From an uncultured Lentisphaerota bacterium (GTDB lineage Bacteria; Verrucomicrobiota; Kiritimatiellia; CAIQIC01): a stretch of 64,000 nt of DNA. Under the pieces are notes generated by a model. The model saw nothing but the letters and a program-made list of their open reading frames with translations, was not told where the DNA came from and searched no databases. The stretch spans positions 1 to 64,000 of the forward strand of contig CAISWQ010000038.1 in NCBI GenBank assembly GCA_903889245.1, in the 5' to 3' direction. A program made the translations under genes and the position numbers. Shown piece by piece: positions 30,980 through 62,360 of the stretch; within the stretch, counting starts at the first letter, position 1; each line of letters starts with the position of its first letter.

Positions 30980-30990
30980 AAAATACGCGC

Positions 30991-41901: not shown

Positions 41902-41917
41902 CCGAGCCGGGGATGAA

Positions 41918-42601
41918 ATGAAAACCATCGGAAAAATCCTCGCCGCCCTGCTGCTCGCGCCGCTGGCGGCGCTGGCCGCCGAACCCGCGGCGGCCATCCA
42001 CGAGACGTTCGACGCCAAGTTCGATGCCTCGCGCTTCCTCACGCCCCTTCCAAACAAAAATACCGAGGTGCGCGATGGCGTGCTGTGGACACGTGGCTCC
42101 AGCGGCGGCAAGTATCCGCCCATGGTCTATTTGCCGGTGCGGGGGCAGGACCTCGCCATCTCCTTCCGCTACCGTCATCGCGGGGCCGGCGGCTGGTTGT
42201 GGTTTTTTGTGGATGGCGATGACGGCCACGGCAGCACCGACCACATGCTGCGTGTGAAGCTCCTGCGCGCAGGCGTCCAACTCGAAGTGGACGGCCACAC
42301 GCTCGACCCCAAGCATCCGCAACTGCAAACCAATCGCCCACCCGACCCGGTCAGCCACACCTACCGGTTGAACGAGTTCCTGCCGCTGCGTAAACTCGAC
42401 CTTGCCGCCAACGACTGGCACACGGTCAAACTCGTCTTCACCGGCGAAAACGTCTGCATCACCCTCGACGACACACGCTGGACCACGAAGCTCCAACGCG
42501 CCGGCTTCAACGCGGCGAAGCGCAAGCTGCTCTGGATGCAGAATGGCGGCGCAGAAGGCATCGAACTGGACGATATCCATGTGACACCCGTTTCCAAGTA
42601 A
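41918..42601 (+). CDS. Secreted DUF1080-like (concanavalin-fold) protein
   Basis: A 227-residue exported protein. Signal peptide I-L-A-A-L-L-L-A-P-L-A-A-L-A-A is of the recurrent L-L-L-A-P-L type. The mature part (I-S-F-R-Y-R-H-R-G-A-G-G-W-L-W-F-F, L-A-A-N-D-W-H-T-V-K-L-V-F, C-I-T-L-D-D-T-R) resembles the beta-sandwich of DUF1080/3-keto-disaccharide-hydrolase-like proteins. No catalytic residues can be assigned, so binding or hydrolysis are both possible. First gene after array 7; the GH106 gene follows 11 nt later. Confidence 0.6.
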   Translation: MKTIGKILAALLLAPLAALAAEPAAAIHETFDAKFDASRFLTPLPNKNTEVRDGVLWTRGSSGGKYPPMVYLPVRGQDLAISFRYRHRGAGGWLWFFVDGDDGHGSTDHMLRVKLLRAGVQLEVDGHTLDPKHPQLQTNRPPDPVSHTYRLNEFLPLRKLDLAANDWHTVKLVFTGENVCITLDDTRWTTKLQRAGFNAAKRKLLWMQNGGAEGIELDDIHVTPVSK

Positions 42602-42612
42602 CCGAAGCCACC

Positions 42613-45600
42613 ATGAAGACCAACCTCACGCTCCTCATCGCACTGCTGCTCGCGCTACCCTCCGCGGAGGCAACATCGCTTGAGGCGGATTTCCGCAACC
42701 CGCCCGCGGCGACCAGGCCGTTTGTCTATTGGTATTGGATCAACAACAACGTGTCCAAGGAAGGGCTCAAGAAGGATCTTCAGGCCATGGCGCAAATCGG
42801 CGTCGGCGGCGTGAGCATTGCGCACATCGAGTACAAAAATACCGCGTACGGCAACGCGCCCATTTTCAGTGATGTGTGGTGGGATGGCATGACGGTGGCG
42901 ATGGAAGAGGCGGCGCGCTTGGGGATCGAGGTGAACCTGTTCAATTCGCCGGGCTGGAGCGGGGTGGGCGGTGCCTGGGTGCAGCCGGAACAGGCCATGC
43001 GCTATCTGGACGTGCATGAATATCGTGTGACCGGTCCGAAGAAACTGGTCTTGCCGTTGCCCAGTTACGAATCCAGCGAACGATTGTCCCAGACTTCGCT
43101 GTCGTTCCAGTACGAAATTGACAAGTCGAAATTCAAGTTTCAGCCGGTGGCCGTGCAGGCGTTTCCCGCCCCGAAAGGCAGTCGTGATTTGATTTCGGCA
43201 AAACAGCCGCTCGTCACCACGAAGCCAGAAATCAAAGGCGTCGAGGCGCTGTTCGATGGCCATGAGGCAACACACGTGTCATTTTTTGATTTTCCGGTCA
43301 CCATCGAGTTGACCGTAAAAGAACCCTTCACGGTCCGCTCTTTGGAGGTGGTGCCCGCCAACGCGCCCTCGGCCGCTTGGTGTAGGCTGGAGTATCTCAA
43401 TGAAAGCGGCGTCTGGGTCCATGTGGTATCCCGGCGCATCGCGCGGAGCGAAAACCGGATCATCGCCAGTGGGTGGTGGCCTTTCGCGCCGGTGTCGGCG
43501 TCCTTCCCGGTCATCAGCGCCAGAAAATTCAGGCTGACGCTAAGCGACAGCGAAGGCGGAACTGTCCGCCGTCCAACTAAAGTCGCCGTTCCGCAAAAGG
43601 AAAAGGCCTGTCTGGCGGAAATCAAACTCTGGGGCGCGGCCCGGGTGGATAGTTATGCCGAGAAACAAATGGGGAACAAAGCCGCGTATGAGAAAAACAA
43701 CGCCGCCGGCATTCCGGCTGGCGAAACCGGATACGCTGTCAAGAAAGACGAGGTCCGCAACCTTGCCGCCCATATGGATGCTAAAGGGGTGCTGACTTGG
43801 GACGTGCCCAAGGGCGACTGGATCATTCAGCACTCGGGCCTGCACCAGACCGGCGTCCCCACGCATCCAGTACCCGTTGGTCCGACCCGCGGATTCGCCG
43901 CCGATATCCTGAGCCGGGCGGCCAACCAAGCCAGCTTCGATGCTTATATCGGTCAGATCTTGCAGCGTATCCCGCCCGCAAAGCGAACAACCCTGACCCG
44001 CGTTGTGCTCGACAGCTACGAACAAGGTTCCGCTGATTGGACCGATGGATTGGCCGGAAAATTCCAGGCCGCCTATGGATATGACCCGCTGCCGTGGACG
44101 CCCGTGCTGAAGGGGCACGTCGTCGAAAGCGCCGAACAATCGGACCGGTTCTTATGGGACTTGCGTCGGCTGGTGGCCGACTTGATGCCGGAGAATTTCT
44201 CCGGCGCCATCCGGGAAAAGGCGCGGCAAAATGGTCTGACGCTGTGGCATGAGCCGTATGCAGGTCATGGTTTCCCCGGGGAATGCCTGCTGCTTGGCAA
44301 ATATACCGACATGCCCGCCGGCGAGTTCTGGCTCAAAAAGCCCCCGGGCGCCAATTTCCCCGAATGCCGGGCGGGCTCGTCCGTGGCCCATGCTTACGGC
44401 CGGCCTATCGTCTCGGTCGAGGCGTTCACGGCTGCCGGAGCCCTCTATCAGGCGGCACCGCGCGATTTCAAAATCCACGGGGATTGGGCGCTGGCGCAGG
44501 GGTTGAACCACTTCACTTTTCACGTGTCCGTCCACCAGCCGGACGAGCACCCGCCCGGCATCAACACCTGGTACGGTACCGAGTTCAATCGCCACAACAC
44601 CTGGTTTCCGGAAGCCAAAGCCTATGTCGATTATGTACGGCGCTCCTGCGCGTTGCTCCAGCGTGGCCAGCGGCAGACCGACATGGCCTTCTACATTGGC
44701 GACGAGGTGCCTTGTGACCACCCGAGCCTGTCTTACGCGGTGCCCCGGGGAGTCGATCTGGATTTTTTGAATTACGATGTGTTGATCAATCGCGCGACCG
44801 TATCCCAAGGCAGGCTGGTGCTGCCCTCGGGGGCCTCGTACCGGCTGCTGGTGTTGCCCAAAAGCACCACCATGCGCCCCGAACTGCTGCAGAAACTGGA
44901 AACGTTTGTGAATGCGGGCCTGATCGTCTATGGCACCCGGCCCCTGAAGTCGCCCAGCTTGAAGGCCTTTCCTGAATGCGACGCCCAGGTCCGGGACATC
45001 GCCGGTCGCCTTTGGGGAAACATCGAGGGGAAACATGTGGTTTCGAACCGTTGCGGGAGCGGCATGGTGTTCTGCGGTCCCGACTTGGCCGCTGTGATGT
45101 CCCAGATTGATTTGACTCCGGATGTCGGCATGCCGGACGGTTTCGTTTTCACGCACCGCCAAGAGGCCGGCGCGGAGATCTACTGGCTTGCGAACCAGAA
45201 AGACGAGCCGCGAACCGCCGCGATCTCGTTCCGGGTGGCGGGCAAACAGCCCGAACTCTGGGATGCGTTGACGGGAGAAATTCGCCCGCTGCACCAGTAT
45301 GTGGCCGAAAACGGAAGGACCATCATCCCGCTGCAATTCCCCCCGGCTGGTTCCTGGTTCATTGTGTTTCGGGAACAAGTTCAGCCGCCAGCGGCCAACG
45401 GGAAAAACTTCCCGGCCTTCAAACCCGGGCAAACCATTTCCGGCACATGGGCTGTCACCTTTGCCAGCCGTGTCCATCCGCCTTTCCAGCGCACGTTTGA
45501 CCGTCTGGTTGACTGGACATCTTCCGGTGATAAAGCGATCAAGTATTTCTCCGGCAAAGCCACCTATGCCATCCAGTTTAACTTCGACGGGTCACGGCCC

Positions 45601-45903: not shown

Positions 45904-45905
45904 CC

Positions 45906-47387
45906 ATGCGACCCAATCTCCCCCTCTTCTCTGCCCTGCTGCTCGCGCCGCTGGTGGCGCCGGCCGAACCGGCGCCGGATCCGCAGCGGGGGCTCTACGC
46001 CATCTGGGCGCAGGATACGCAGGCGGCCGGGCTGCCCTTCCTCAAGGGCGGTCAGGTTCACGTGCAGTGGGCCGAGGTCGAGCCGGTCGAGGGGCGCTAT
46101 GATTTTTCCAGCCTGGATGAGCAGCTCGCGGCCGTGCGCAAGCGCGGCTGGGCCGCCACGGTCCAGCTCAACGGCAACCGGCATCCGGCGTTCCTCTTCC
46201 AGAAGGTGCCCCACACGCCGCAGAAACTTTCGAAGCAGGTCGGCGACGCCGCGGGCACCCTGGCCTACTGGCATCCGACCTACATCCAGGCTTATACGAA
46301 ACTGATCGCGGCCTACGCGCAGCACCTCAAGCAGTCGCCGCAGCGCGCCGCCATCCTCGGCGTGCGCATGAACTTCAACGCGCTCGGCACGGAGCACCTG
46401 GAGGTACCGCAGGCGGACCGTGACCCGGCGCGCTGGGTCGTGCCGGCGGGCGTGGCGGCGGGGCCGGTCTGGACGCGCGCCAGCGCCCGGGACTATCAAC
46501 AGCGGATCGTCAACGAATTCATCCGCCAGTTCACGCCGGAGATCCGCGTGTTCGCGCGCAACAACGTCTTCGGCCGCGAGGAAGCCGACCCGGCGTGGTC
46601 GCGGTTGCTGGAGACGGGTCGCCTCGCGCTGTTCCATACCTCGAGCGAGATGGAGCCCCGCCCGCACGGTGGCGGGCAGTATCAGACGTTCATCCGCTAC
46701 TGCCGCAGCGGCCAGACGACCGCCTACGCGGAGTCGTGGGCGGACGCCTGGGGGCGGCACGGCGGGATGACGGACCCGCGCTGGTGCGGCCCCGAGCAGT
46801 GGAACTACTGGCGGTTGCTCTTGGACCTGCACTGCGGCGTGTCGGTCATCGCCATCTACGGCGCCGATCTCGCCCACGCCGCGCATCCGGAGTTCCGCGC
46901 CGCGTTCGATTTTGCCGCGCTCTACGCCGGCTATCACGCCAGCCCGGGCGTCGCGCCCGGCGCGTGGGTCGCGCTGCGCGAGGGCCACACGCTTCCGGGC
47001 GACTACTCCTTCCTCATGCGGCGGCTGCCGGGCGACGAGCTGCCGCCGCTGGAAAAGGTCGGGCCGGGCGAACAACGCTTCGGGGCCTGGGCGCGCCATT
47101 TGCGTAAGGGCGGCCACGCCGGTTTCGCGCTCGACGAAAGTTTTGCCTGCAGCCTCGCCGGGCGGGCGGCCACGGTCCAGGTGGTCTATCTCGACAAGGG
47201 CGCGGGCCAGTTCACGACCCGTTGCGACGGCCGCGAGTTCAGCGCCGCGCTCAAGGACAGCGGTCGCTGGCAGACGGCCCGGTTCACGCTTGATAAGGCC
47301 ACGCTGCAGCCGGATGCCAGCGGCGCGCACATCACGCTCACGGCCGATACGGATATAGCCCTGCACATGATCGAGGTCCGCAGATAA
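45906..47387 (+). CDS. Secreted TIM-barrel glycosidase-like protein (GH42/GH5-like)
   Basis: A 493-residue exported protein with the S-A-L-L-L-A-P-L signal-peptide type. The barrel shows H-V-Q-W-A-E-V-E-P-V-E-G-R-Y-D-F, a typical first-strand motif of clan GH-A enzymes. F-N-A-L-G-T-E-H and Y-A-E-S-W-A-D contain the Glu residues that could be acid/base and nucleophile. The C-terminal ~130 residues form a beta-domain. The exact GH family is uncertain. It starts 2 nt after the GH106 stop, so likely co-transcribed. Confidence 0.6.
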   Translation: MRPNLPLFSALLLAPLVAPAEPAPDPQRGLYAIWAQDTQAAGLPFLKGGQVHVQWAEVEPVEGRYDFSSLDEQLAAVRKRGWAATVQLNGNRHPAFLFQKVPHTPQKLSKQVGDAAGTLAYWHPTYIQAYTKLIAAYAQHLKQSPQRAAILGVRMNFNALGTEHLEVPQADRDPARWVVPAGVAAGPVWTRASARDYQQRIVNEFIRQFTPEIRVFARNNVFGREEADPAWSRLLETGRLALFHTSSEMEPRPHGGGQYQTFIRYCRSGQTTAYAESWADAWGRHGGMTDPRWCGPEQWNYWRLLLDLHCGVSVIAIYGADLAHAAHPEFRAAFDFAALYAGYHASPGVAPGAWVALREGHTLPGDYSFLMRRLPGDELPPLEKVGPGEQRFGAWARHLRKGGHAGFALDESFACSLAGRAATVQVVYLDKGAGQFTTRCDGREFSAALKDSGRWQTARFTLDKATLQPDASGAHITLTADTDIALHMIEVRR

Positions 47388-47400
47388 AGGGAGCATCACG

Positions 47401-48183
47401 ATGAAACAAATCTCCACGGTTCTGCTCGCGCTCTGGTTTGCATCGCTGCTGGCGACGGCCGCCGAGACGAAGCCGGCTCCTTCGTCGCGCGATGACGCCG
47501 CGTGGCTGCGCGAGAAGGGCACGCTGATTTTCCACGACGCTTTCGAGCGCGCGGTGACGAACAACGGGCTGAAGGGCATCGGCAACGGGTGGGAGAGCGC
47601 CACGGCCGACCGCGTACCGAAGATCAGGCAGGCCGACATCGAGGGCGGCATCCTCAAGATCGCCAGCGCGACGAAGGAGGCTGGCCACGCCGCGCACATC
47701 CATCACGACGCCGGCTTCGCCGATGGTGGCGTGCTTGTGCGCTTCAAGTTTCCCGGTCTGAACAAGGACGAGTCGCTCCAGTTGGGCTTTGTGGACCGCG
47801 AGCTCAAGGGCGTCCACGCCGGCCATCTTTGTTACGGCATCCTCTCGCGCAGCAGCATCACGCTGATCGACCACAAGACCGGCGTGATGAACCTGGACAT
47901 CCGCAAGCGCCGGCAGGAGTACGCGGAGCGCAAAGAAAAAGTGCCCGCCGAGTTGGACGCGCTGCTCAAGACCAAGCAGGCCGTCGTGCCATGGAAGGCG
48001 GACACGGAATGGCATGACCTCGTGCTCGTCACGGAAGGCGACGAGATGCGCTTGGGCATTGACGGCAAGCTTGTCGCCCGTCATCGTTCCGCGGGCTTCG
48101 CGCATCCAATGAAGCGCTGGTTCAGCTTCCTCGTGCCCAGCACCGTGTGGATTGACGACGTGAAAATATGGAGAGTGAAATGA
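47401..48183 (+). CDS. Secreted DUF1080-like (concanavalin-fold) protein
   Basis: A 260-residue exported protein. G-T-L-I-F-H-D-A-F-E-R and W-H-D-L-V-L-V-T-E-G-D-E, then W-I-D-D-V-K-I-W match the beta-sandwich of DUF1080-like proteins. It is not a close duplicate of the protein at 41918, being longer and with a charged K-R-R-Q-E-Y-A-E-R-K insert. GGGAG lies upstream of the ATG. Its stop overlaps ATGA with the next BNR gene. Confidence 0.6.
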   Translation: MKQISTVLLALWFASLLATAAETKPAPSSRDDAAWLREKGTLIFHDAFERAVTNNGLKGIGNGWESATADRVPKIRQADIEGGILKIASATKEAGHAAHIHHDAGFADGGVLVRFKFPGLNKDESLQLGFVDRELKGVHAGHLCYGILSRSSITLIDHKTGVMNLDIRKRRQEYAERKEKVPAELDALLKTKQAVVPWKADTEWHDLVLVTEGDEMRLGIDGKLVARHRSAGFAHPMKRWFSFLVPSTVWIDDVKIWRVK

Positions 48184-49775
48184 AAACGAAAACAATGCTC
48201 GCGCTGCTCACCGTCCTGTTGTTCGCGCCACTGGGTTCGCTGTGCGCGGCCGCGGAGTCGCCCGTGCTGCAGCCGCCGCAGTATGTCGGCGCGCCCAAGG
48301 CCGAGCAGTCGGTCACCAACCGCGCGTTCACCGGCATCCCGAGCATGGCCGTCGCGCCCAAGGGCCGGCTGTGGGCCACGTGGTACGCGGGCGTGACACC
48401 GGGCGAGGATCACAACAACTACGTCGTCTTGAGCACCAGCGGCGATGGCGGCGCGACGTGGCAGGAGGTGCTCGTCGTGGACCCCGACGCGGGCGGGCCG
48501 CTGCGCACCTTCGATCCGGAGTTGTGGCTGACGCCGGATGGCCGGCTGATGCTCATGTGGGCGCAGCGTAATTGCCTCGACCGCGAGTTTGGTCCGCTCG
48601 GCGTCTGGTTCATCGAGACCAGCGAACCGGACGCGGCGCAGCCGAAGTGGTCAGCGCCGCGCCGCATCGGCGATGGCGTGATGATGTGCAAGCCGCTGGT
48701 GCTGACCTCCGGCGAGTGGGTGTTCCCGCTCTCGCTCTGGCGGGAGCGCGACCATAGCGCGGAGCTCGTCACCTCCACCGACGCGTGCAAAACGTTCACT
48801 GTACGCGGCGGCTGCAACGTGCCCGTGGCCGACCGGCAGTTCGATGAGCACATGTTCATCGAGCGCAAGGATGGCTCGCTGTGGCTGCTCGTGCGCACGA
48901 AATATGGCATCGGCGAAAGCGTCAGCGCCGACCGTGGGAAGACGTGGCCGGAGCTGAAGCCCTCCAGCATCCTGCATACGCCGTCGCGCTTCTTCATCAC
49001 GCGGCTGGCGTCGGGCAATTTGCTGCTGATCAAGCACGGCCCGCTGGAGACGCGCACCGGCCGCTCGCAACTGACGGCCTACATTTCCAAGGACGACGGC
49101 CGCACGTGGGGCGGCGGCCTGCTGCTCGATGAGCGCAACGGCGTCTCCTATCCCGACGGCCAGCAGACACCCGGTGGGCTCATCCGCATCATCTACGACT
49201 ATAACCGCACTACCGACCGCAACATCCTGATGGCGACCTTCCGCGAGGAGGATGCCGCCGCCGGCAAGGACGTCAGCGGCGCGGTGAAGCTGCGCCAGCT
49301 CGTGAGCAAGGGGAGCGGCGGGAAGGAGAAGGCGGTGACGCCGAAGCAGCCGGTGAACGCCAACGCGAACGGCGAGCCGCTGCGCGTGCAGAAGCCCGGC
49401 ACGCTCGCGTGCGAAGGCGTCCAGCCGAAGCTCTTCGAGCCGGGCGCCAAAATGTTTAGTGATCGCGACTACATTGTTGCCGAAGTGCCCGATGCGCTGA
49501 AGGCCGCGCACTTCCTGCCGGTGACGTTGGACGGAAAGAAGACGCTCGCCTGCCAGCGCGCCGGCACCGTGTTCTTCCTCACGCCGCAGCCGGATCGGAA
49601 TCGGGACACGCAGTCGCAGGCGTTGATGGATCAGGGCTTCGAGAAAGTCGCATTGCCCGAGGTGCGCCTCTTCGGCGGCGGCCCGAACAACTCCTGCACG
49701 CTCTACCAGAAGGACTGCGCGGCCGGTGAGGTCATCAATCTTGGCAAATGGGCCGTGCCGTTGTTCATCCCGTGA
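48180..49775 (+). CDS. Secreted BNR-propeller protein with unusual C-terminal extension
   Basis: A 531-residue exported protein. Residues about 30-385 form a sialidase-like propeller (S-G-D-G-G-A-T-W, S-A-D-R-G-K-T-W, S-K-D-D-G-R-T-W). It is clearly paralogous to the protein at 54851, sharing L-Q-P-P-Q-x-V-G-A and R-A-F-T-G-I-P-S. Beyond the end of that paralog it carries about 150 additional residues (G-T-L-A-C-E-G-V-Q-P-K, L-F-G-G-G-P-N-N-S-C) that I do not recognise. It ends the unit that starts after array 7. Coupled by ATGA to the upstream gene. Confidence 0.72.
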   Translation: MKTKTMLALLTVLLFAPLGSLCAAAESPVLQPPQYVGAPKAEQSVTNRAFTGIPSMAVAPKGRLWATWYAGVTPGEDHNNYVVLSTSGDGGATWQEVLVVDPDAGGPLRTFDPELWLTPDGRLMLMWAQRNCLDREFGPLGVWFIETSEPDAAQPKWSAPRRIGDGVMMCKPLVLTSGEWVFPLSLWRERDHSAELVTSTDACKTFTVRGGCNVPVADRQFDEHMFIERKDGSLWLLVRTKYGIGESVSADRGKTWPELKPSSILHTPSRFFITRLASGNLLLIKHGPLETRTGRSQLTAYISKDDGRTWGGGLLLDERNGVSYPDGQQTPGGLIRIIYDYNRTTDRNILMATFREEDAAAGKDVSGAVKLRQLVSKGSGGKEKAVTPKQPVNANANGEPLRVQKPGTLACEGVQPKLFEPGAKMFSDRDYIVAEVPDALKAAHFLPVTLDGKKTLACQRAGTVFFLTPQPDRNRDTQSQALMDQGFEKVALPEVRLFGGGPNNSCTLYQKDCAAGEVINLGKWAVPLFIP

Positions 49776-49885
49776 ACTGCGGCGGTTTACTGTCAAACAA
49801 AATGCCCCTTTTGCGGGGCGTGGCCCGCTGCTATCGTGCCGCCATGCATCGAACGCATCCGCGATGGCCGGTGGCCTGCGCCGTT

Positions 49886-49993
49886 TTCCAGGGCTTGGAA
49901 AAGTTCCGCCCGGAATTTCCAGGGCTTGGAAAATTTTCCGCGAGATTTTCCAAGCCCTGGAAAAACGCCGGTTTCTTTTTCCAACCCTTGGAA
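49886..49993. repeat. TTCCA-N5-TGGAA array 8 (4 copies)
   Basis: Copies at 49886-49900 and 49917-49931 (both TTCCAGGGCTTGGAA), 49948-49962 and 49979-49993 (TTCCAACCCTTGGAA); spacing exactly 31, 31 and 31 bp. It ends 26 nt before the sulfatase ATG at 50020. Its last copy and flanks (GCCGG... TTGGAACC... GCCGGGAT) closely match those of array 7. Confidence 0.95.
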
Positions 49994-50019
49994 CCAGCCG
50001 GGATCTGCGAGGAACAACC

Positions 50020-51519
50020 ATGAAATACACCTACGCTCTCCTCACCGCCCTGCTGCTCGCGCCGCTTGATGCGCTCCACGCCGCCGCCCGGCCGAACATC
50101 GTCATCATCCTCGCCGATGACCTGAGCTATGTTGACGTCGGCTACACCGGACAGAAGATGTTCGCCACACCACACATTGACCGGCTGGCGGCCAACGGGA
50201 TGCGGTTCACCCAAGCCTACTCTGGGGCGCCTGAATGCGCACCGTCGCGCGCAAGTCTGATGACCGGCAAACACATGGGCCATTGTCGCATTCGCTCGAA
50301 CGCCACGAAAAACGGACGCGGCTATCTGCAAGCGGAGGACGTTACGCTGGCCAAGACCCTCAAGGCGGCCGGATACGCCACCGGTTTTGTCGGCAAGTGG
50401 GGCATGGGATTGATGGACGACGACGGCGCGCCGTTCCGGCAGGGCTTCGATTACTCGTTTGGTTTCTACAACCAAGGCCACGCGCATTCATATTACCCAA
50501 ACTACTTGGAAGAAAATTGCCGCCAGGTGCAGATTCCAGAGAACCAAGGTTTCGACATGGCCGCGCTCTACGCTCACAGCTCCAAGGACCGGAACCGTTA
50601 TGATGCACAGGGGAACTTCCTTGCGCCGGGCGTTGCCGATCCGGTGAAGGCAAAGAACTCCCAGGCGCTCATCCACGCGGCGGGCCTCGATTTCATCCGA
50701 CGCAACAAGAGCCAGCCGTTCTTCCTGTATTACGCCACGCAGCTTCCGCACGGGCCGGTGGTGATTCCGAATCTCGGCGACTACAAGGACAAGGATTGGC
50801 CGCTGAAGAACAAGGAATGGGCCGCGATGGTGGCGTGGCTGGACCGGTGCGTCGGCGAGATTGTCGCGCTGTTGCGCGAACTGAAATTGGAGGAGAACAC
50901 CCTGATTCTCTTCGCCAGCGACAATGGCTACAGCCAGTGGGGCTACTTCGCCCGCGGCAAGTGGAACGACGATCCGCTGTTCAAGAACAAAGGCCCGTGG
51001 CCCGGCGGCAAGTTCGCGCTCTATGAAGGCGGCTGCCGCGTGCCGTTCTTTGTTTCATGGCCGGGGCGGATCAAAGCCGGCGAAAGCCGCCATGTGCTGG
51101 CCTTCTATGATGTCATGCCGACGCTGGCCGGGTTGGTGGGGATAGCGCCGCCCCCAACAGACGGGATCAGCTTTCTGCCGGAGCTTCTTGGCGAAACGGG
51201 GCAGCAGAAACAGCACGACTACCTCTACTGGGAGAATGGCACGCAGCTGCCGCACGGCCAAGCGGTGCGTTTCGGCCCGTGGTATGCGATGCGCGAACAC
51301 CCCTCCAAACCGGTGCGTGTCTTCGACGTGGAACAAGATGCCGCCTGCACCCACGACTTGGCGGATGAACGCACGGACCTTGTCAGTCGCGCCAAAGCTA
51401 TGTTTGCCGAGGCGCACATTGACAGCGACACCTATACCAATCCAGGAGAGTCCACTAAACTTGAACGGCCAAAACCCAAGGCGAAGAAACGACCGGTCAA
51501 TCAAGGGGCGCTGGAATGA
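50020..51519 (+). CDS. Secreted S1-family sulfatase
   Basis: A 499-residue exported sulfatase with signal peptide L-L-T-A-L-L-L-A-P-L-D-A-L-H-A. N-I-V-I-I-L-A-D-D is the metal motif; C-A-P-S-R begins at Cys73 as formylglycine site; V-G-K-W-G-M-G and A-S-D-N-G-Y follow. It opens the unit after array 8 with GAGGA as Shine-Dalgarno. The next gene overlaps by ATGA. The C-terminus is Lys/Pro-rich. Confidence 0.9.
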   Translation: MKYTYALLTALLLAPLDALHAAARPNIVIILADDLSYVDVGYTGQKMFATPHIDRLAANGMRFTQAYSGAPECAPSRASLMTGKHMGHCRIRSNATKNGRGYLQAEDVTLAKTLKAAGYATGFVGKWGMGLMDDDGAPFRQGFDYSFGFYNQGHAHSYYPNYLEENCRQVQIPENQGFDMAALYAHSSKDRNRYDAQGNFLAPGVADPVKAKNSQALIHAAGLDFIRRNKSQPFFLYYATQLPHGPVVIPNLGDYKDKDWPLKNKEWAAMVAWLDRCVGEIVALLRELKLEENTLILFASDNGYSQWGYFARGKWNDDPLFKNKGPWPGGKFALYEGGCRVPFFVSWPGRIKAGESRHVLAFYDVMPTLAGLVGIAPPPTDGISFLPELLGETGQQKQHDYLYWENGTQLPHGQAVRFGPWYAMREHPSKPVRVFDVEQDAACTHDLADERTDLVSRAKAMFAEAHIDSDTYTNPGESTKLERPKPKAKKRPVNQGALE

Positions 51520-54658: not shown

Positions 54659-54819
54659 AACTCACCCTCACAGCACTCACCGCCCTGCTGCTGCCGCCGC
54701 TGGCCGCGCTGCACGCGGGAGGCGGCTTGCCGGGAGTTCCAATGTTTGGGAAACTCCGCGCCGGCTTGTTCCAGTCGATGGAAACCTGCGGTGCGTTGGC
54801 TTCCAATGAATGGAAGTGA
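54655..54819 (+). pseudogene. Orphan signal-peptide ORF (54 codons) running into repeat array 9
   Basis: An ATG overlapping the previous stop (ATGA at 54655) opens M-K-L-T-L-T-A-L-T-A-L-L-L, then P-P-L-A-A-L-H-A-G, a complete signal peptide nearly identical in DNA to those of neighbouring secreted enzymes. The frame then runs without a recognisable mature domain straight through array 9 to a stop at 54817. This looks like the 5' remnant of a gene whose body has been lost. A 30-residue secreted peptide cannot be excluded. Confidence 0.6.
54737..54815. repeat. TTCCA-N5-TGGAA array 9 (3 divergent copies)
   Basis: Copies at 54737-54752 (TTCCAATGTTTGGGAA, one extra G), 54769-54783 (TTCCAGTCGATGGAA) and 54801-54815 (TTCCAATGAATGGAA); spacing about 31-32 bp. 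The central five bases differ from all other arrays while the TTCCA and TGGAA halves and the period persist, revealing what is conserved. It ends 35 nt before the next start codon. Confidence 0.85.
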
Positions 54820-54850
54820 CGAATCAAATGAAACTGAAAGAACCAAACCG

Positions 54851-55993
54851 ATGAAGCCCACCCTCACACTCCTTGCCGCCCTGCTGCTTGCGCCGTTGGC
54901 CCCTCTCCACGCGGAAACGAATTCCTCACTCCAGCCGCCTCAGCACGTCGGCGCGCTAAAAGCCGAACACGCGCTGCCCCTTCGTGCCTTTACTGGCATC
55001 CCGAGTCTGACGGTCACTGCACGGGGGCGTCTGTGGGCCGTGTGGTACGCGGGGATCACGCCTGCGGAGGACATGAACAACTACGTGGTGGTGGCAACCA
55101 GCGCTGACCGCGGAAGCACGTGGAAGGAAGTGCTGGTGATTGACCCGGACGGCCGGGGACCTTTGAAGGCCTTTGATCCTCAAGCCTGGCTGGATCCGGC
55201 CGGCGTGCTCTGGATATTCTGGTCTCAACGGTCCATCCACGAGGAAAGCTGTGGGCTGTGGTGCGTCACCATCCCGGACGCTGACTCCGATCGTCCAGTC
55301 AGATCCGGGCCGCGCCGGCTCACCGATGGAATCATGATGAACGAGCCCGTTATTCTCGCCAGCGGCGAATGGGTCATGACTGTCTCGACCCACGGGACGG
55401 GAAACAGCGTCAAGAGCGTCGTGTCATCCGACCAAGGGCGGACGTGGAGCATTCGTGGAAGCGTGAACGTGCCGAAAGAAGTCCGGGTACCGGACGAACC
55501 GATGATGGTGGAGCGCAAAGACGGCTCTCTCTGGATGCTGGTACGCACCCGTTACGGCATCGGGCAGACGTTTTCCAAGGACCGGGCACAAACCTGGACT
55601 GCCCTCGTTCCTTCGGAGATCAGGCATCCCGCATCGCGATTCCACATCCGCAGACTGGCCTCCGGGAACCTCCTGCTGGTGAAGCACGGTCCCATCGCGG
55701 TGCGGACGGGGCGTTCCCAACTCATGGCGTTCGTATCCACGGACGACGGCTTCAACTGGTCGACCGGGCTGCTGCTCGATGAACGCGACGGCGTTTCCTA
55801 TCCCGACGGTGCGCAGGACAAGGACGGTCTGATCTGGATGGTCTACGACCACGACCGCAAAGGCGCCGGCGAAATCCTCCTGGCGAAGTTTCGGGAGGAA
55901 GACGTGGCTGCCGGCAAGGACGTGTCCGGTACGGTGAGCCTGAAGCAGGTCATCAGCAGGCTCAACAAATCCACCCGACCCGTCCAGCCCTGA
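54851..55993 (+). CDS. Secreted BNR-propeller (sialidase-like) protein
   Basis: A 380-residue exported protein, signal L-A-A-L-L-L-A-P-L-A-P-L-H-A. Asp-boxes S-A-D-R-G-S-T-W, S-S-D-Q-G-R-T-W and S-T-D-D-G-F-N-W. It is a paralog of the propeller at 48180 but lacks that protein's C-terminal extension. It is the first gene after array 9. The ATG at 54851 starts the signal peptide; longer in-frame readings come from the array. Confidence 0.75.
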   Translation: MKPTLTLLAALLLAPLAPLHAETNSSLQPPQHVGALKAEHALPLRAFTGIPSLTVTARGRLWAVWYAGITPAEDMNNYVVVATSADRGSTWKEVLVIDPDGRGPLKAFDPQAWLDPAGVLWIFWSQRSIHEESCGLWCVTIPDADSDRPVRSGPRRLTDGIMMNEPVILASGEWVMTVSTHGTGNSVKSVVSSDQGRTWSIRGSVNVPKEVRVPDEPMMVERKDGSLWMLVRTRYGIGQTFSKDRAQTWTALVPSEIRHPASRFHIRRLASGNLLLVKHGPIAVRTGRSQLMAFVSTDDGFNWSTGLLLDERDGVSYPDGAQDKDGLIWMVYDHDRKGAGEILLAKFREEDVAAGKDVSGTVSLKQVISRLNKSTRPVQP

Positions 55994-56024
55994 CGCGAAG
56001 GATTCTTGCCGCAAAGCATTCACT

Positions 56025-57077
56025 ATGAAATACGCCTTCACACTCCTCACCGTCTGCTTGTTGGCGCCGCTGTCAGGTGCCGAAGAAAAGTCCGCGGTCG
56101 CGCCGGCCAGCGACCAACGGCAGATCGAACGGATCGAGGCGGCGACGACGAAGCTCTCCCTCCGTGCGGCTCCCTCTACTCTGAAAATCACTCGGCTCCT
56201 CCATCGCGTGCCAGCCGAGCAACTGGCATGTGGACGTCGGATTCACGTGGAAGGCGAATCAATGCCCAAAGAGTATCAGGCCGAGAATTCATGGCTCATA
56301 CTGAGGGACCCAGACATTGGCGATACAGCGCCCCTGTATCGGTGTGACATCAATTCCGGCAAGGGATCGGCGATTTCGCGCCGAACTTCGCACCCTGACA
56401 TGACCTCGCACAAGATGATCGGGCACATCTATACCAAGCCGGGTCCCGGGCGCGTCGAGTTGCGTTTGGTGGTCCCCAAGGGCGCGCCACGAGAAGGATA
56501 CTTCGTAACCGACTTTACGAACTGTGAAGGCGACGCCTATCGCGAGGAAGAATTTCTCGGCTATGCCTATCGAACGATTCCCTACGACGTTGTGGCTTCC
56601 GTGACCCCTGCGACGATTGTGCCGGGCGGCACGGTGAAGATCTCGTGGACCACCAGGCATGTGCCCGAAGGCCAAAAGGGGCGAGTGAACAGATTTCCAG
56701 ATCGCATCCTCGGCATGGCTCTCAGCCCGGCGGCCATTTCTGGAGCCTTCATTGACGAAGAGGGCAAGATAACCGGCGAGCCGAAATCCGATCCCTTCGC
56801 CAAGCATGTGCCGCTGACCGGTTCGATCGGCTGGAAAAGCACGCACACACTGACGGGATATCACACCCAGCACCTTCCGCCCGGCAAGTATCAAATCCAG
56901 TTTGCCCTGTTCCCCGAGTGCTTCTACAGCCGCTCGAACCCCTGCGACTGGCAGTTGGATGACATCCTGTTCACTGCCAGCAATGTGTTTACCGTTGCGG
57001 ATCCGAGTCCTTCTTCCCCCTGCCAGCCAGATGCCAGTGTTGCACCGATTACTAACGGGCGGACGCAAGAACCATGA
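56025..57077 (+). CDS. Secreted protein of unknown function
   Basis: A 350-residue exported protein, signal L-L-T-V-C-L-L-A-P-L. No family recognised. Visible features: a segment around residues 35-160 with several Cys (A-C-G-R-R-I, Y-R-C-D-I-N, T-N-C-E-G-D) and a likely beta-sandwich of about 100 residues (V-P-G-G-T-V-K-I-S-W-T-T-R, L-P-P-G-K-Y-Q-I-Q-F-A-L-F) resembling an Ig-like or fibronectin-like domain. The C-terminal 25 residues are Ser/Pro-rich. Overlaps ATGA with the next gene. Confidence 0.5.
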   Translation: MKYAFTLLTVCLLAPLSGAEEKSAVAPASDQRQIERIEAATTKLSLRAAPSTLKITRLLHRVPAEQLACGRRIHVEGESMPKEYQAENSWLILRDPDIGDTAPLYRCDINSGKGSAISRRTSHPDMTSHKMIGHIYTKPGPGRVELRLVVPKGAPREGYFVTDFTNCEGDAYREEEFLGYAYRTIPYDVVASVTPATIVPGGTVKISWTTRHVPEGQKGRVNRFPDRILGMALSPAAISGAFIDEEGKITGEPKSDPFAKHVPLTGSIGWKSTHTLTGYHTQHLPPGKYQIQFALFPECFYSRSNPCDWQLDDILFTASNVFTVADPSPSSPCQPDASVAPITNGRTQEP

Positions 57078-59062
57078 AACACATCCTCCCCCTCTTCACC
57101 GCCCTGCTGCTCGTGCCGTTGGCTGCACTGACCGCCGCTGATCTGCCGCAGTTTACCGTGCCCGGCCATGAGGCGGATATAAAGACGCTGAACGAATTTC
57201 ACGCCTTGCATCACGACCGCGCTTTCACGCCTTGCCCGTTGTGGGATGGCTGGCTGCCGATGGCGACGCTTTGGGCTTCGGAGAAGAAGCGCGGACAGTA
57301 TCGCGCGGCGTTCTTAGACCGGCGGATCGACGCGGAGGGCTACGTTTCCATGCAACAGCACCGGGGCATGGCCCACAGTGAAGGATGGCCCTTTCCGGCG
57401 TGGCAGCAGAGCACGGGCGCGGGGTTTCATTTCTCGACCGGTGGCGAAGCATGGGCGATTCAGAACTTCGCACTCAAGCCGCTGGCGAACACGGACGGCT
57501 GGGAGATCCGTGGGGCGGAGGTGACGGGGATTGATCCAGTGGCGGGCCTTAAACTGAGGGCCACAGGGGATGTGGTCAGCCTGACCACGCCCGCCTTTCG
57601 TTGCGGCACGGTCGTCGCGCCCTTTGCCAGGCTGGAATGGGCGGCCCGCGGCTTACCGGCGGAATCGACACCGAAGCTCCTCTGGCTGCTCGAAGGCGAA
57701 GCCGAATGGAAATTCGAACGCCACGCCGGTTTCCCCCCGCTGCGCGATGCCGATGGCATGCGTTACGCCAATGTGCCGCTCTACCGGCAACCGGGCTACG
57801 CGGGCATGCTCCGGCGCTATCGCATCATTTTCGATCATGCGACCGGTGCGTCGATTGACTTGAAGTCCATCATCACCGCCATCGACACGAGGCATCCGAT
57901 CACCAACCCGCTCTTCGTGCGCGGCAGTACGGAATACTTCACCTGGACGCGCGACCTGGACTTCCTGCGGCGAAACATCGCCCGCATGAGAACGGCCTTG
58001 CGATTCGCCCTGGACGAGTTCTCCGTACGGGAACAGAAGCATGTGCGCGTGCCGTGGGTCGGCCACGATGGTCGCAGTGGCCTCGTCAGCGGTCTGGATG
58101 GCAAGAATACCCAACGTTTCGGCCATGGCGTGGGGAACAATTACTGGGATCTATTGCCGTTCGGCGCTCATGATGCCATCGCCACGATGTATCTCTTCGA
58201 TGCGTTGCAGCACTTTGCCCAACTGGAACGCGATATAGCGCGACACCCTGACTGGAACATCCCGGGCGACGGTCAGCGGTTCGACGCCGATGACCTTGCG
58301 CGACTCGCCACCGAGATGCGTGCCGACTTTCAAAGACGCTTTTGGAACACGGGCACCGGCCGTTTCGTTGGCTGGGTAGACATCGAAGGCTGCGCTTATG
58401 ATTACGGGTTCACCTTCGTGAATCTGGAAGCCGTCCATTACGGCCTCGCCTCGCCCGAACAAGCTCACAGTATCCTCGCTTGGCTCGACGGCACTCGCGC
58501 GGTTGCAGCCGACACCTCGCGTGGTGTGGACATCTACCGTTGGCGCTTTGCGCCGCGCGCCACTACCCGCCGCAACATCGAGACCTACGTCTGGCCGTGG
58601 TTCAAGCCCGAAAATATTGCGTGGGGCGATCAAGTGCAGGATGGCGGTGCCGTGCTCGGCTTCAGTTTCCATGACCTCATGGCCCGGCTGAAAACCAACG
58701 GGCCCGATGACGCTTGGAAGCGTCTGCGCGAAATCCTCGCGTGGTTTCGCGAGGTGCAAAGCGAGGGCGGCTACCGGGCGTACTACGCCAAGCCCGGTCG
58801 CGGCATTCTCCAAGGCGGCGGCCCGCCCGGCGGTCTCGGCATGGACCAGGAGTTTCTCGAAAGTGTCCTCGTGCCCCAAGTCATGCTCTGCGGTTTCCTT
58901 GGGTTCACCCCGGCAGCCGATGGTTTCACCACGCATCCACGGTTGCCGAAAAACTGGCCTGCACTGACGATCACTGGCATTTGTTTTCAAAATCAGGTCA
59001 TGGATATCACCGCGTATCCGGATGGACGCACAGAGGTAATCAGACAAAACGGAAAACCATGA
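57074..59062 (+). CDS. Secreted (alpha/alpha)6-barrel glycosidase-like protein
   Basis: A 662-residue exported protein, signal F-T-A-L-L-L-V-P-L-A-A-L-T-A. An N-terminal beta-sandwich (to about residue 280) precedes an (alpha/alpha)6 six-hairpin barrel: F-V-R-G-S-T-E-Y-F-T-W-T-R-D, N-N-Y-W-D-L-L-P-F-G and G-M-D-Q-E-F-L-E-S-V-L-V-P. A C-terminal beta segment ends V-M-D-I-T-A-Y-P-D-G-R. This layout occurs in GH78-, GH63- and GH65-like groups, but I cannot place it in one. Coupled by ATGA on both sides. Confidence 0.65.
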   Translation: MKHILPLFTALLLVPLAALTAADLPQFTVPGHEADIKTLNEFHALHHDRAFTPCPLWDGWLPMATLWASEKKRGQYRAAFLDRRIDAEGYVSMQQHRGMAHSEGWPFPAWQQSTGAGFHFSTGGEAWAIQNFALKPLANTDGWEIRGAEVTGIDPVAGLKLRATGDVVSLTTPAFRCGTVVAPFARLEWAARGLPAESTPKLLWLLEGEAEWKFERHAGFPPLRDADGMRYANVPLYRQPGYAGMLRRYRIIFDHATGASIDLKSIITAIDTRHPITNPLFVRGSTEYFTWTRDLDFLRRNIARMRTALRFALDEFSVREQKHVRVPWVGHDGRSGLVSGLDGKNTQRFGHGVGNNYWDLLPFGAHDAIATMYLFDALQHFAQLERDIARHPDWNIPGDGQRFDADDLARLATEMRADFQRRFWNTGTGRFVGWVDIEGCAYDYGFTFVNLEAVHYGLASPEQAHSILAWLDGTRAVAADTSRGVDIYRWRFAPRATTRRNIETYVWPWFKPENIAWGDQVQDGGAVLGFSFHDLMARLKTNGPDDAWKRLREILAWFREVQSEGGYRAYYAKPGRGILQGGGPPGGLGMDQEFLESVLVPQVMLCGFLGFTPAADGFTTHPRLPKNWPALTITGICFQNQVMDITAYPDGRTEVIRQNGKP

Positions 59063-60027
59063 GATTTGCCTCCACACTCCTCACCGCCCTGCTGCTGACG
59101 CCGTTGGCGGGATTGGTGGATTCGGGAACTCCTGAAACTACGGCTGAAACGTGGACGGTTTCGAACACGGTGATGCGGGTCACCGTATCGGCCCGCGATG
59201 CCGGGGCGGTGTGCAGTCTGGTGTATGACGGGCTGGAGTTCGTCAACGATCACGATCACGGACGACAATTGCAGGTGGCGTGGATCAACAACGATCTGGA
59301 CGAAGCCTATAACCCGACGGAAGCAGGCGCGGACAGCGATGGTGGGGGCCCGCGATCGAGTAGTCAGTTGCTGTCCGTCAACGTCGAAGGTGCCACGTTG
59401 CAGACGCAATGCCATCCGGCGTATTGGAGGAATCTTTCCGTGCCGGAGAGGCACCGCAAGAACACGGCCTTGGTCACGAAGGATCTGCTCACGAAAAGGC
59501 TGACGCTCGGCCATCGCGGCGATCCACACGTGCTGGTCTTTGACACCACGGTGGCTATCAGCAGCGACTTCACCGGGCCGCCGATCAGTTCAGTGCGCAT
59601 CGAGTCTCCTACGCTCTATTCAAATCCGAAACTCGCCTGGCATTGCCTGTTCGACCCGACGAGCGGGGAATTGAAGGACGTGTCGTCGCACGCCACGATG
59701 AAAAATCAGATGAACGAGGTTATCCGGCGGGTCACGCGCCATGACCTGATCCCGGTTCTCAGCACGCACGATCAACGCCAGGCGGTCGCTTTCTTCACGC
59801 CGCAGCGCGAGAATTTCTGGGCCTACTACACCCATGACGTGCCGAGTGATGATCCGACCAACGCATGCGGCAAGATCACCGCCTTCTTCAAACACCCCGT
59901 CGCCACCGGACAATCCTATTCGTATCGGACGTTCATCATCGTTGGCGACCTTGCCACCGTCAAAGCCAGCGCCCGACGACTACTCAACCGGCAAAGCGAG
60001 ACTCCAGCACCACATAGCAAACCATGA
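59059..60027 (+). CDS. Secreted protein of unknown function, probable beta-sandwich
   Basis: A 322-residue exported protein, signal L-L-T-A-L-L-L-T-P-L-A-G-L. The mature start V-S-N-T-V-M-R-V-T-V-S-A-R-D-A-G-A, then L-V-Y-D-G-L-E-F-V-N-D-H-D-H-G and A-Y-N-P-T-E-A-G look like a galactose-mutarotase-like or lyase-type beta-sandwich surface, but no family is certain. Coupled by ATGA to both neighbours. Confidence 0.5.
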   Translation: MRFASTLLTALLLTPLAGLVDSGTPETTAETWTVSNTVMRVTVSARDAGAVCSLVYDGLEFVNDHDHGRQLQVAWINNDLDEAYNPTEAGADSDGGGPRSSSQLLSVNVEGATLQTQCHPAYWRNLSVPERHRKNTALVTKDLLTKRLTLGHRGDPHVLVFDTTVAISSDFTGPPISSVRIESPTLYSNPKLAWHCLFDPTSGELKDVSSHATMKNQMNEVIRRVTRHDLIPVLSTHDQRQAVAFFTPQRENFWAYYTHDVPSDDPTNACGKITAFFKHPVATGQSYSYRTFIIVGDLATVKASARRLLNRQSETPAPHSKP

Positions 60028-60852
60028 AACACACTCTCGCATTCATCCTCACCGCCCTGCTGCTCGTTGGCGTTGGCAGCGCTGCGGAGATCGCCATCCG
60101 CACCGGAGCCACCCCAAGCGCCATGGAGACCCTCGCCGCCCGGGAATTGCGGCGGTACCTTTACCTGACCTCGGGGACCCTGCCGGTCCTGGAGAGTTCG
60201 GAGCGGGATCGGCTGACCATCCGCCTGGAGCTCGGCGCGGACCTCGGTCCCGAGGCCTTCACCCTCAGCGCCAGCCCGGATGGCGGGACGCAGCGCATCG
60301 TCGGCGGCGGCCCGCTCGGCCTGCTCTACGGCACCTACCGCTTCATCGAGCACCAGGGCGTGCGTTTCCTGCTGCACACCGACGTGATCCCCGACCAGCG
60401 CCACGCCGTCACCACCGTGAATGACCGCGGTGCCCCGCTGTTCGCCGTGCGCGGCGTTCTGCCCTTCCACGATTTCTCCTCGGGACCGGACTGGTGGACC
60501 CGGAACGATTACCTCACCATCGTCTCCCAATTGCCCAAGCTGGGGATGAACTTCATCGGCTTCCATGGCTACCCCAGCGAGCCGCTGGTCTGGATCGGAC
60601 TGCCGGGGGAAGCGACCGCCCAGGGACGGGTCACGGAGGCGAACGATACCGGCGGGCAGAATACCGCGCGCCACGCTGGCCGCCGGCGAAAAGAAGCCCG
60701 TGACGGTGAAAATTCCCGCCGAGGAACTCTCGCTGTGGAACCGCGAGATGAAAAAAGTGATCGAACCGGGCTGGTTCACCGTGATGATCGGTCGCAATGC
60801 CGAAGACATTGTTCTCAACGGACGCTTTGAGTTGAAAGAAAACCTCCCGTGA
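60024..60852 (+). pseudogene. Chimeric remnant: GH67N-like N-terminus joined out of frame to a GH3 C-terminus
   Basis: From the ATG at 60024, about 208 residues (signal L-T-A-L-L-L-V, A-R-E-L-R-R-Y-L-Y-L-T-S-G, L-L-Y-G-T-Y-R-F-I-E, L-G-M-N-F-I-G-F-H-G-Y-P) match the N-terminal alpha-glucuronidase-type (GH67N-like) region. Around 60648-60660 sense in this frame is lost. In the +1 frame, from about 60657 to the stop at 60852, T-L-A-A-G-E-K-K-P-V-T-V-K-I and V-I-E-P-G-W-F-T-V-M-I-G match the fibronectin-like C-terminal domain of GH3 beta-glycosidases. The original frame ends at 60830. Two genes appear to have been fused by a deletion, leaving neither functional. Confidence 0.65.
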
Positions 60853-62360
60853 AATTCCGCAACCATCTCTCGAAACTCCAGACCAGCCTGAATGTGCCGG
60901 CAGCGGCACGGGCCATCAGCAGGAAGATTCTCGCACTCACCGCCCTGCTGCTCGCACCGCCGGCCGCGCTGCACGCCGCCGGGGAGCCGAAGCAGAAGCC
61001 CAATATCATCATCATCCTCGCCGACGACCTCGGCTTCGGCGATGTCAGCTGCTACGGGGCGAAAAAAATCAAGACGCCGCATATCGATCAGCTGGCCCGC
61101 GAGGGACTGCGGTTCACGGATGCGCACACGGCGGCCTCGCTTTGTTCCCCGTCGCGCTACGGCCTGATGACCGGGTGCTACCCATGGCGGCTGCACCGCA
61201 AGGGCAACGACTACAAACTCGAAGCCGGACGCCTGACGCTGGCCGCGCTGCTCAAGGCCCAGGGCTACCGTTCCGCCGCGATCGGCAAGTGGCACCTCGG
61301 CTACAGCAAGGATTGGAATCAGCCGCCGATCACCGGGCCACTGGAGGCGGGGTTTGATTATCACTTCGGCGTACCGCAAAACCATAACGATGCGTACCGC
61401 GCCTTCATCGAGAACCACGATTTGGTGGGCCGCAAGCCGGGCGAGGCTTTCCAGCCTTCGCGAGAAGGCCGCCTGCCGCAGGGTATCGCCCAGCCGCGCG
61501 TCGAGGATCAGGTGGACACCACGCTCACCGCCAAGGCGATCCATTTCATCCGGGAAAACGCCGGCCGCCCCTTCTTCCTCTATTTCACGCCCTGTGCACC
61601 GCACACCCATATCACGCCGGCCGCCGCCTATCGCGGCACCAGCCAGTGCGGCTTGTTCGGCGACCATATCCAGGAACTCGATGCCCACGTCGGCGAGATC
61701 CTCGCCACGCTGGACGAGCTGAAGCTCCGCGACAACGCGTTGGTCATCTTCGCCAGCGATAACGGAGGCGCGCCGGCGGACTTCAAAGGGAGCCAGCACG
61801 CAGAGCTGAATCTGGCCAGCGAAGCCGGGGACGTGCGGGCGAAGGCCAGGTCTGCCAGGGTCGATGCCCGGGCCGCGGGGCACATGGTCAACGGTCTGTG
61901 GCACGACGGCAAAGGCTCGCCCTACGAGGGCGGACATCGCGTTCCGTTCATCGTCCGCTGGCCCGGGAGGATCGCGCCCGGGGCAACCTCCGCACAGTTG
62001 CTCTGCTTCACCGACCTGCTCGCCACGGCGGCCGACATCGTGGACGCCAAGCTTCCCGACGGCGCGGGCGAGGACTCCTTCAGCTTCCTGCCCATCCTCC
62101 TCGGTCAGCCGGCCACCGCAGCGCAACGCCAGCTCGCGTTCATCCAAGGCGATCAAAACGACAACGCCATCGCCGTCCGCGCGAACCAGTGGAAACTCAT
62201 CGAGACGCGGAACAGCAAGCAACAGAAAATGCACCAGCTTTATGATTTATCCGCCGACCCGGGCGAAACCAACGACCTCGCCAAGACCAAGCCGGAGGTC
62301 GTGCAGGAACTCGCCGCCGCACTCGAGAAGGCCCGCGCTGACGGCCGCACGAGGAAATAG
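60849..62360 (+). CDS. Secreted S1-family sulfatase
   Basis: A 503-residue sulfatase starting with GTG that overlaps the stop of the GH3 remnant (GTGA). The N-terminus is extended before the usual A-L-T-A-L-L-L-A-P-P-A-A-L-H-A signal core, so the real start may be a later GTG. N-I-I-I-I-L-A-D-D-L-G-F-G is the metal motif; C-S-P-S-R begins at Cys99; K-W-H-L-G and A-S-D-N-G-G follow. No ATG start is available, which is unusual in this cluster and may result from the deletion upstream. Confidence 0.85.
   Translation: MKFRNHLSKLQTSLNVPAAARAISRKILALTALLLAPPAALHAAGEPKQKPNIIIILADDLGFGDVSCYGAKKIKTPHIDQLAREGLRFTDAHTAASLCSPSRYGLMTGCYPWRLHRKGNDYKLEAGRLTLAALLKAQGYRSAAIGKWHLGYSKDWNQPPITGPLEAGFDYHFGVPQNHNDAYRAFIENHDLVGRKPGEAFQPSREGRLPQGIAQPRVEDQVDTTLTAKAIHFIRENAGRPFFLYFTPCAPHTHITPAAAYRGTSQCGLFGDHIQELDAHVGEILATLDELKLRDNALVIFASDNGGAPADFKGSQHAELNLASEAGDVRAKARSARVDARAAGHMVNGLWHDGKGSPYEGGHRVPFIVRWPGRIAPGATSAQLLCFTDLLATAADIVDAKLPDGAGEDSFSFLPILLGQPATAAQRQLAFIQGDQNDNAIAVRANQWKLIETRNSKQQKMHQLYDLSADPGETNDLAKTKPEVVQELAAALEKARADGRTRK

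Follow-up and report, generated by a model that had tools for sequence, protein, structure and literature searches.

Signal-Peptide DNA Copies in the Window

The window, that is, the whole stretch of 64,000 nucleotides that was analyzed, carries a 20-nt core sequence (CTCACCGCCCTGCTGCTCGC, ≤3 mismatches) at 14 sites, all on the + strand and located between 38132 and 60936. The number expected by chance is 0.04, and none of 100 shuffles reached the observed one. The whole genome of the window (5.26 Mb, 125 contigs) has 58 core matches including these 14, and a second cluster of four matches is found in contig C56. The initial annotation had placed the core in ten genes, all of which are among the 14 sites. 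The additional sites belong to the genes at 38117, 42613, 48168, and 51516. The core begins exactly 21 nt past an ATG at 10 of the 14 sites. The respective offset is 24 nt at 60024 and 15 nt at 38117, and it is ambiguous at both 48168 and 60849.

The ORF starts show a positive n-region, a Leu/Ala-rich core, and an A-x-A-like end, as is typical of Sec signal peptides, and their peptide pattern, MK..TLLTALLLAPLAALHA-A, is a predicted export tag. According to the Pfam scan, the bodies behind the tag are sulfatases, GH106, GH42-like proteins, BNR propellers, and proteins without Pfam match. NCBIfam contained no family for the tag and none for the Pfam-less bodies.

In detail, the first copy (38117–38182, MKPTLLAVLLLALPAAFA) precedes a BNR/LamG protein. 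The body of this protein is 85–87% identical to its orthologues in the genomes G002 and G003 of the same genus, whose signal peptides are unrelated. The following copies are located at 41918–41983 (body without Pfam match), 42613–42678 (a weaker copy, in front of a GH106 rhamnosidase), 45906–45971 (GH42-like protein), and 48186–48251, where the family start lies near 48186 within a BNR_2 propeller gene (48168–49775). Further copies precede a 190-aa protein of no known family (51516–51581), an 857-aa protein (52085–52150), a BNR_2 propeller (54851–54916), and three bodies without Pfam match, of 662 aa (57074–57139), 322 aa (59059–59124), and 268 aa (60024–60089), the last with its copy one codon out of the usual place. 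The 857-aa protein had been read as a ceramidase fusion, a reading that does not hold, as its weak Ceramidase_alk match falls under the cut-off of Pfam. The exact 20-nt core is found in the copies at 50020–50085 and 60915–60980, both belonging to sulfatases. In the second sulfatase, which starts with a GTG at 60849 or 60894, the core was rightly reported and lies at 60936, but the position of the family ATG (60915) reads ATC.

The bodies had been described as non-homologous. This is true for most of them, with the exception of the sulfatases at 50020 and 60849, which are homologous, and of the propeller at 54851, which is 55% identical to the one at 48168.

The Orphan Copy and the Palindromic Element

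The copy at 54655–54720 (+ strand) is an orphan. It had been listed as an ordinary protein gene, yet no body follows its signal peptide, and the ORF enters palindromic intergenic DNA and stops after 54 codons. The palindrome-bearing element (54718–54850, + strand) fills the space up to the next signal peptide, which begins 196 nt downstream of the orphan, at 54851. This doublet of signal peptide, element, and signal peptide is a dispersed repeat in G002 and G003, and it also occurs at a spacing of 187–193 nt in genomes from Lake Tanganyika (L116, L122, and L124) that belong to the PVC group (Planctomycetes-Verrucomicrobia-Lentisphaerae). In three genomes, 16 out of 224 copies have an absent or short in-frame body, and a few have no start codon. 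Orphan copies of this kind are what exchange at the signal peptide would be expected to leave behind, and selection on a protein would not.

Two other readings of this region were rejected. The orphan at 54655 could be a leader peptide (i.e., a secretion monitor composed of a signal peptide and a conserved tail), but this fails as a general reading, since related orphans have frame-shifted tails or no start. The palindrome array could be the mobile unit itself, but palindromes occur much more widely than the signal peptide (of the 328 palindrome matches, 190 are located in G000 and have no signal peptide near them), and they are therefore treated as a separate feature. A few orphans retain an ORF of 46–54 codons.

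Conservation of the Signal-Peptide DNA

The conserved block extends from the ATG to about codon 23, where it stops, and its consensus is ATGAAACCCACCCTCACnCTCCTCACCGCCCTGCTGCTsGCGCCGCTGGCCGCGCTGCACGCnGC. In the alignment of 54 members from three genomes of the same genus, the wobble positions are conserved from the ATG to about +60/+66, and this conservation is gone by about +75. Upstream, through the ribosome-binding region, the information content of the 54 members equals the background, and it jumps at the ATG.

The claim that synonymous sites are conserved beyond codon bias was confirmed by the shuffling check which the initial annotation had proposed. The window set has a synonymous-codon identity of 0.625, compared with 0.436 (sd 0.023) for synonymous shuffles within each gene and 0.321 under genome codon usage. 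Across the different sets, members have values of 0.59–0.68 (0.41–0.46 when shuffled, 0.32 under genome codon usage), and signal peptides of the same genomes which are not members remain at or near the shuffled level. As the regions of G002 and G003 had been chosen by the core, the test was rerun on members picked by protein similarity only, with the core at least four mismatches away. These core-independent members gave 0.544 versus 0.410 (z about 24), and other signal peptides 0.324 versus 0.322.

The 199 tagged genes with a body in the three same-genus genomes form 80 unrelated body clusters, including 37 singletons, and 78 Pfam families were identified among 69 body representatives. The signal-peptide DNA is one dispersed family with shared DNA ancestry, showing the wobble identity across non-homologous genes by which a dispersed DNA repeat family is recognized.

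Distribution of the Family

All genomes compared are unfinished metagenome assemblies. The genome of the window contains 38 copies, whereas G002 and G003 contain at least 124 and at least 144, respectively. The small same-genus genome G001 has 2 copies, and another genus of the family has 9–12. Neighboring copies share the strand in 145/145 and 109/109 cases, in comparison with 77% for adjacent genes in general.

At the level of the phylum, 7 of the 289 genomes drawn have a 32-nt core match, and several such matches exist only in G000 (6), G003 (43), and G240 (29), the last from another family. Among 116 genomes of the class, five have at least 12 copies and most have none. The exact 29-nt pattern gave approximately 91 matches in 80 stretches of about 85,000 species genomes. 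Nearly all of them belong to assemblies of Verrucomicrobia, Opitutae, Lentisphaerae, and Planctomycetota, many from lakes, with the caveat that the taxon label of a single contig may be wrong through mis-binning. Equal similarity in unrelated genomes would have spoken against a shared origin, and only 2 of the 91 exact matches lie outside PVC; these are from Fulvimonas and one proteobacterial bin, both in an unrelated CdsA-like membrane protein. Within PVC, the presence of the 29-nt pattern is patchy, with dozens of copies in some genomes and none in most, and the genomes reached through it contain up to 79, 56, 50, and 46 copies. As a DNA tag, the 29-nt pattern could be used to trace the exchange network of lake bacteria.

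Phages and viral contigs gave no match, and the plasmids gave one partial match (a Kitasatospora plasmid), with no real copies in these collections. The family does not behave as a phage- or plasmid-borne element.

Junctions between Related Genomes

Homologous bodies of G002 and G003 were compared outward. Conservation of the 140 nt upstream goes along with conservation of the signal peptide (N-half 0.81–0.85). The upstream DNA is unrelated in 62% of the member pairs versus 37–38% of other genes, and in these cases the N-half of the signal peptide drops to about 0.6, whereas the body stays near 90%.

The sharpest case is a cassette shared by G003 (C127:5994) and G002 (C165), with bodies 99.8% identical and unrelated upstream DNA. 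The left break is placed in its own signal peptide, at or before +41, with no differences thereafter. On the right side, identity spans the stop codon, an 11-nt spacer that is identical, and 35 nt of the next signal peptide (with two differences), and is then lost, so that the right break falls between about +11 and +35 of the signal peptide of the next gene. Both ends of the moved unit are thus located in signal-peptide DNA.

An empty site was also found. In G002 (C72), genes A and B are separated by one signal peptide, whereas in G003 (C182) the same genes are separated by two signal peptides enclosing 6.95 kb with several genes. Allowing for normal divergence, the G002 signal peptide is a hybrid, matching in its 5′ part the G003 copy that follows A and in its 3′ part the copy that precedes B. 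Either one lineage gained the segment or the other lost it; in both cases, the crossover took place between two signal-peptide copies.

In-register crossovers at both ends and a hybrid repeat at an empty site are the marks of recombination between repeats, here seen at base level in few events: one near-identical two-sided junction and one clear empty site are resolved to a few bases, and the crossover position is blurred in older pairs. The resolved intervals of these few events differ, that is, about +33 to +41, +11 to +35, and roughly +26 to +60. Short-read assembly artefacts are unlikely at the joints, given that the stretches shared exactly there are no longer than about 12–25 nt. In distant PVC genomes, blocks with both ends at copies are shared, for example, by L143 and L168 (92%), L104 and L108 (91%), and L108 and L149 (89%), some of these ends being favored by the resemblance that all copies have to one another. 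In L111, one cassette is tandemly duplicated.

In accordance with the initial annotation, the 5′ ends were copied or recombined, as indicated by the junctions inside the signal-peptide DNA that flank the transferred cassette and by the occupied and empty sites of G003 and G002. The proposed shuffling of bodies behind a common tag was also borne out, except that the exchanged unit is more than a body: it starts with the 3′ half of a signal peptide, continues through body and spacer, and ends with the 5′ half of the signal peptide that belongs to the next gene. The interpretation given there is supported overall. No two-sided junction was found at the ten window genes from which it was drawn, where relatives with matching context are wanting.

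The best case within the window is the stretch 36908–38166 (+ strand): its two flanking genes lie next to each other, with the stretch missing, in contig C156 of G003 and contig C47 of G002. These extra 1.26 kb contain the propeller gene at 36902, palindromic intergenic DNA, and the 5′ portion of the signal peptide at 38117; the left end is at an ATG and the right end within that signal peptide. Since the signal peptide of the relatives at this position is not a family member, the event is not a clean crossover between repeats.

Statistics of the Junctions

The half-by-half comparison of signal peptides was designed around the bias of alignment extension and rests on few pairs. When the next bodies are unrelated, the N-half of the next gene’s signal peptide has an identity of 0.738 versus 0.673 for the background of unrelated members (P = 0.0065), and the C-half is at background. 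For bodies at least 85% identical, the N-half value is 0.867 (P < 0.001, four pairs). Spacers in the sharpest pairs have identities of 1.00, 0.81, and 0.67 versus 0.28 for random spacers. In the signal peptide of the moved gene itself, when the upstream DNA differs, the C-half is the most raised (0.807 vs. 0.707).

The 198 ends of synteny blocks between G002 and G003 fall in member signal peptides in 18–20% of the cases versus 1.0% of random positions (about 20×). The respective values are 13–14% versus 2.4% (about 5.6×) for other signal-peptide starts, 8% versus 2% for other gene starts, and 41% versus 5% for gene ends. Counts of upstream sides ending in a signal peptide are inflated, because alignments run freely through any two member signal peptides. 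Untagged gene starts are also enriched at block ends (about 4–6×), and signal peptides outside the family change together with the upstream DNA as well, which indicates that part of the turnover of 5′ ends is not specific to the family.

Probable Mechanism of Exchange and Alternative Explanations

The copies share a common ancestry, junctions are in register at both ends, the same site is occupied in one genome and empty in another, and the family has spread horizontally among distant PVC genomes. It is likely that the cassettes were moved by recombination between copies of the signal-peptide DNA, with crossovers in the core inserting, deleting, or exchanging units. The copies lie as same-strand direct repeats, one at each gene start, in operon-like arrays of putatively secreted hydrolases, and at about 60 nt, well alike and in the same orientation, they are natural substrates of recombination. 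A crossover within the shared core could then insert, delete, or exchange a cassette that would run from the 3′ half of one signal peptide through the body and a short spacer into the 5′ half of the signal peptide downstream. In-register crossing over preserves the reading frame and a working (predicted) tag in the moved gene as well as in its new neighbor.

The agent is probably general homologous recombination of the RecA type, acting on imperfect homology; no recombinase was found among the Pfam-scanned genes of the window. Under vertical inheritance, the signal peptides change somewhat faster than the bodies, and descent alone would therefore let the family drift apart. For this reason, it is the exchange itself that presumably keeps the copies alike.

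A different explanation, to which we give a small chance, is that illegitimate recombination joins DNA anywhere and selection preserves only in-frame secreted products. The concerted change of non-family signal peptides with their upstream DNA would fit, and so would the 36908–38166 case, in which the resident side has no family homology. On the contrary, the right breaks are in register in the next signal peptide and the spacer is kept, neither of which is needed by selection on the moved gene. The excess of block ends at family members over that at other signal peptides also speaks against it.

There is little chance that a site-specific recombinase acts at a fixed core site in a true cassette system, comparable to the Xer-type enzymes of mycoplasma surface lipoprotein genes. 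Junctions in the core, same-strand repeat arrays, doublets, and orphan copies would be expected from such an enzyme, but the few resolved crossovers lie at differing positions, no recombinase was found among the Pfam-scanned window genes, and the family is absent from the collections of phages, plasmids, and viral contigs.

Selection on the DNA or RNA, in which the first 66 nt would serve as a site for a small RNA or a protein, or as a translation or mRNA-targeting signal that co-regulates hydrolases, is very unlikely. The conservation does begin exactly at the ATG and includes the wobble positions. In orthologues with a kept upstream context, however, the signal peptide (about 0.81–0.88) is less conserved than the body (about 0.92), which argues against a base-by-base constraint. 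Moreover, junctions occur within the block, bodiless copies persist even without an ATG in some cases, and the presence of the family is patchy.

Codon usage combined with a narrow choice of amino acids (Leu/Ala-rich peptides in the favored codons of a 64% G+C genome, where CTG/CTC and GCC/GCG predominate) has a negligible probability, as it is refuted by shuffles that keep the codons of each gene, by the lack of position-specific codons in other signal peptides of the same genomes, by the clustering of the core matches in the window, and by the absence of the core from most genomes of the phylum. Codon usage and constraint at the RNA level are both disfavored.

Comparison with Known Systems

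In integrons, interchangeable units of one gene each are arrayed in a single orientation with a recurring recombination sequence between them, and the arrays described here resemble them in all three respects. In contrast to integrons, the recurring sequence is translated as part of each protein and has no recognizable attC-like site. With regard to the integrase, attI, and attC of an integron, no integrase was found among the Pfam-scanned cluster genes and the recurring sequence is coding. We tentatively suggest, at somewhat less than even confidence, a dual-use sequence that is both a secretion tag and the joint of an integron-like system of translated cassettes, through which lake PVC bacteria may build up arrays of secreted enzymes that degrade polysaccharides and exchange them between families, perhaps even phyla, the exchange keeping the joint alike. 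An export tag doubling as the joint for the insertion, deletion, and trade of genes would explain concretely, at the level of bases, how some PVC bacteria acquire large repertoires of secreted sulfatases and glycoside hydrolases whose composition keeps changing.

In polymorphic toxin systems (Rhs, contact-dependent inhibition), the N-terminal part is constant and C-terminal cassettes are exchanged by recombination (PMC3482391). Similarly, a constant 5′ coding segment is combined here with unrelated 3′ bodies swapped by recombination. The differences are that the constant part is just a 22-residue signal peptide, that the bodies are whole secreted enzymes (80 clusters), and that the genes form same-strand arrays in which the right-hand joint is the signal peptide of the next gene. 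Instead of C-terminal toxin domains accompanied by immunity genes, the bodies are sulfatases, glycoside hydrolases, propellers, and esterases, and neither immunity genes nor a delivery domain were found.

In the vsa and Vpma systems of Mycoplasma, site-specific inversion places silent lipoprotein genes behind the promoter and the N-terminus-encoding DNA of an expression site (PMC4534519, PMC2268961). What they share with the present case is that recombination takes place close to the DNA encoding the N-terminus of a secreted or surface protein. The inversions of vsa/Vpma are reversible and restricted to one locus and one protein family, whereas here direct repeats, insertion or deletion, and transfer between genomes are involved, and no fixed site was seen in the few events.

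No precedent for gene exchange mediated by signal peptides was found in the open-access literature, an absence which is weak evidence. Within the same superphylum, Kamneva et al. 2015 (PMC4452313) clustered the signal-peptide profiles of PVC bacteria, with 92 gene families, and a likeness of signal peptides between different families is common to both works; the available part of that paper concerns the level of protein profiles and reports neither DNA identity nor recombination. Similarity of the signal peptides among such proteins is uninformative on the homology of the proteins themselves.

Signal-Peptide Copies and Their Variants

A doublet, in which one signal peptide is followed by a palindromic element and then by a second signal peptide, forms a dispersed repeat. 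This arrangement is found at 54655–54916 of the window and in genomes of Planctomycetes-Verrucomicrobia-Lentisphaerae (PVC) bacteria from Lake Tanganyika (loci L116, 3050–3305; L122, 1835–2086; and L124, 7420–7671). Some copies of the doublet have a tail (e.g., GRNLPGVPxFGxLRAGSFQALE) with an open frame, and others have a frame-shifted one; a leader peptide may be encoded by some copies.

In the same-genus genome G003 (contig C182, minus strand, block coordinates 10289–11596), an orphan signal peptide, that is, a copy without a body, and the palindromic element lie immediately 5′ of a gene whose product has a twin-arginine-like N-terminus. Therefore, the element is not restricted to Sec genes.

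A longer variant of the signal peptide carries 36–51 additional nt ahead of the conserved core (TTGAAATCAGCTTGGCAGGCTGTCTTCCTTCGGTCG, or CGCTTTCGGCGGGCCGTCTCGCTGCG) and is common at the DNA level to several different PVC genomes. Its representatives are located in L136 (7595–7719), L159 (184–308), L132 (3339–3463), L174 (minus orientation, 2362–2486), and contig C182 of G003 (minus strand).

In the sulfatase gene at 60849–60960 of the window, ATC occupies the position (60915) where the family start codon is expected. The alternative starts are GTG at 60849 or 60894, with which the n-region would be longer.

At 2.5 Mb, the same-genus genome G001 does not reach half the length of the other genomes in the genus, and it is almost devoid of signal-peptide copies, with only 2. 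Thus, the signal-peptide arrays accompany large genomes.

Palindrome Arrays

Imperfect palindromes TTCCAR-N2-5-YTGGAA form arrays with a steady pitch of 31–32 bp (about three helical turns), apparently within the intergenic gaps of the window (3723–3772, 8274–8385, 17161–17243, 26629–26743, 30903–30984, 38013–38095, 41824–41906, and 49886–49998). The window contains 25 such sites versus 0.1 in shuffles. Their density is ∼340 per Mb in the 464 kb sampled from the window's genome and is lower in the same-genus genomes G002 (198) and G003 (85). The arrays resemble phased operators or, alternatively, a REP-like repeat.
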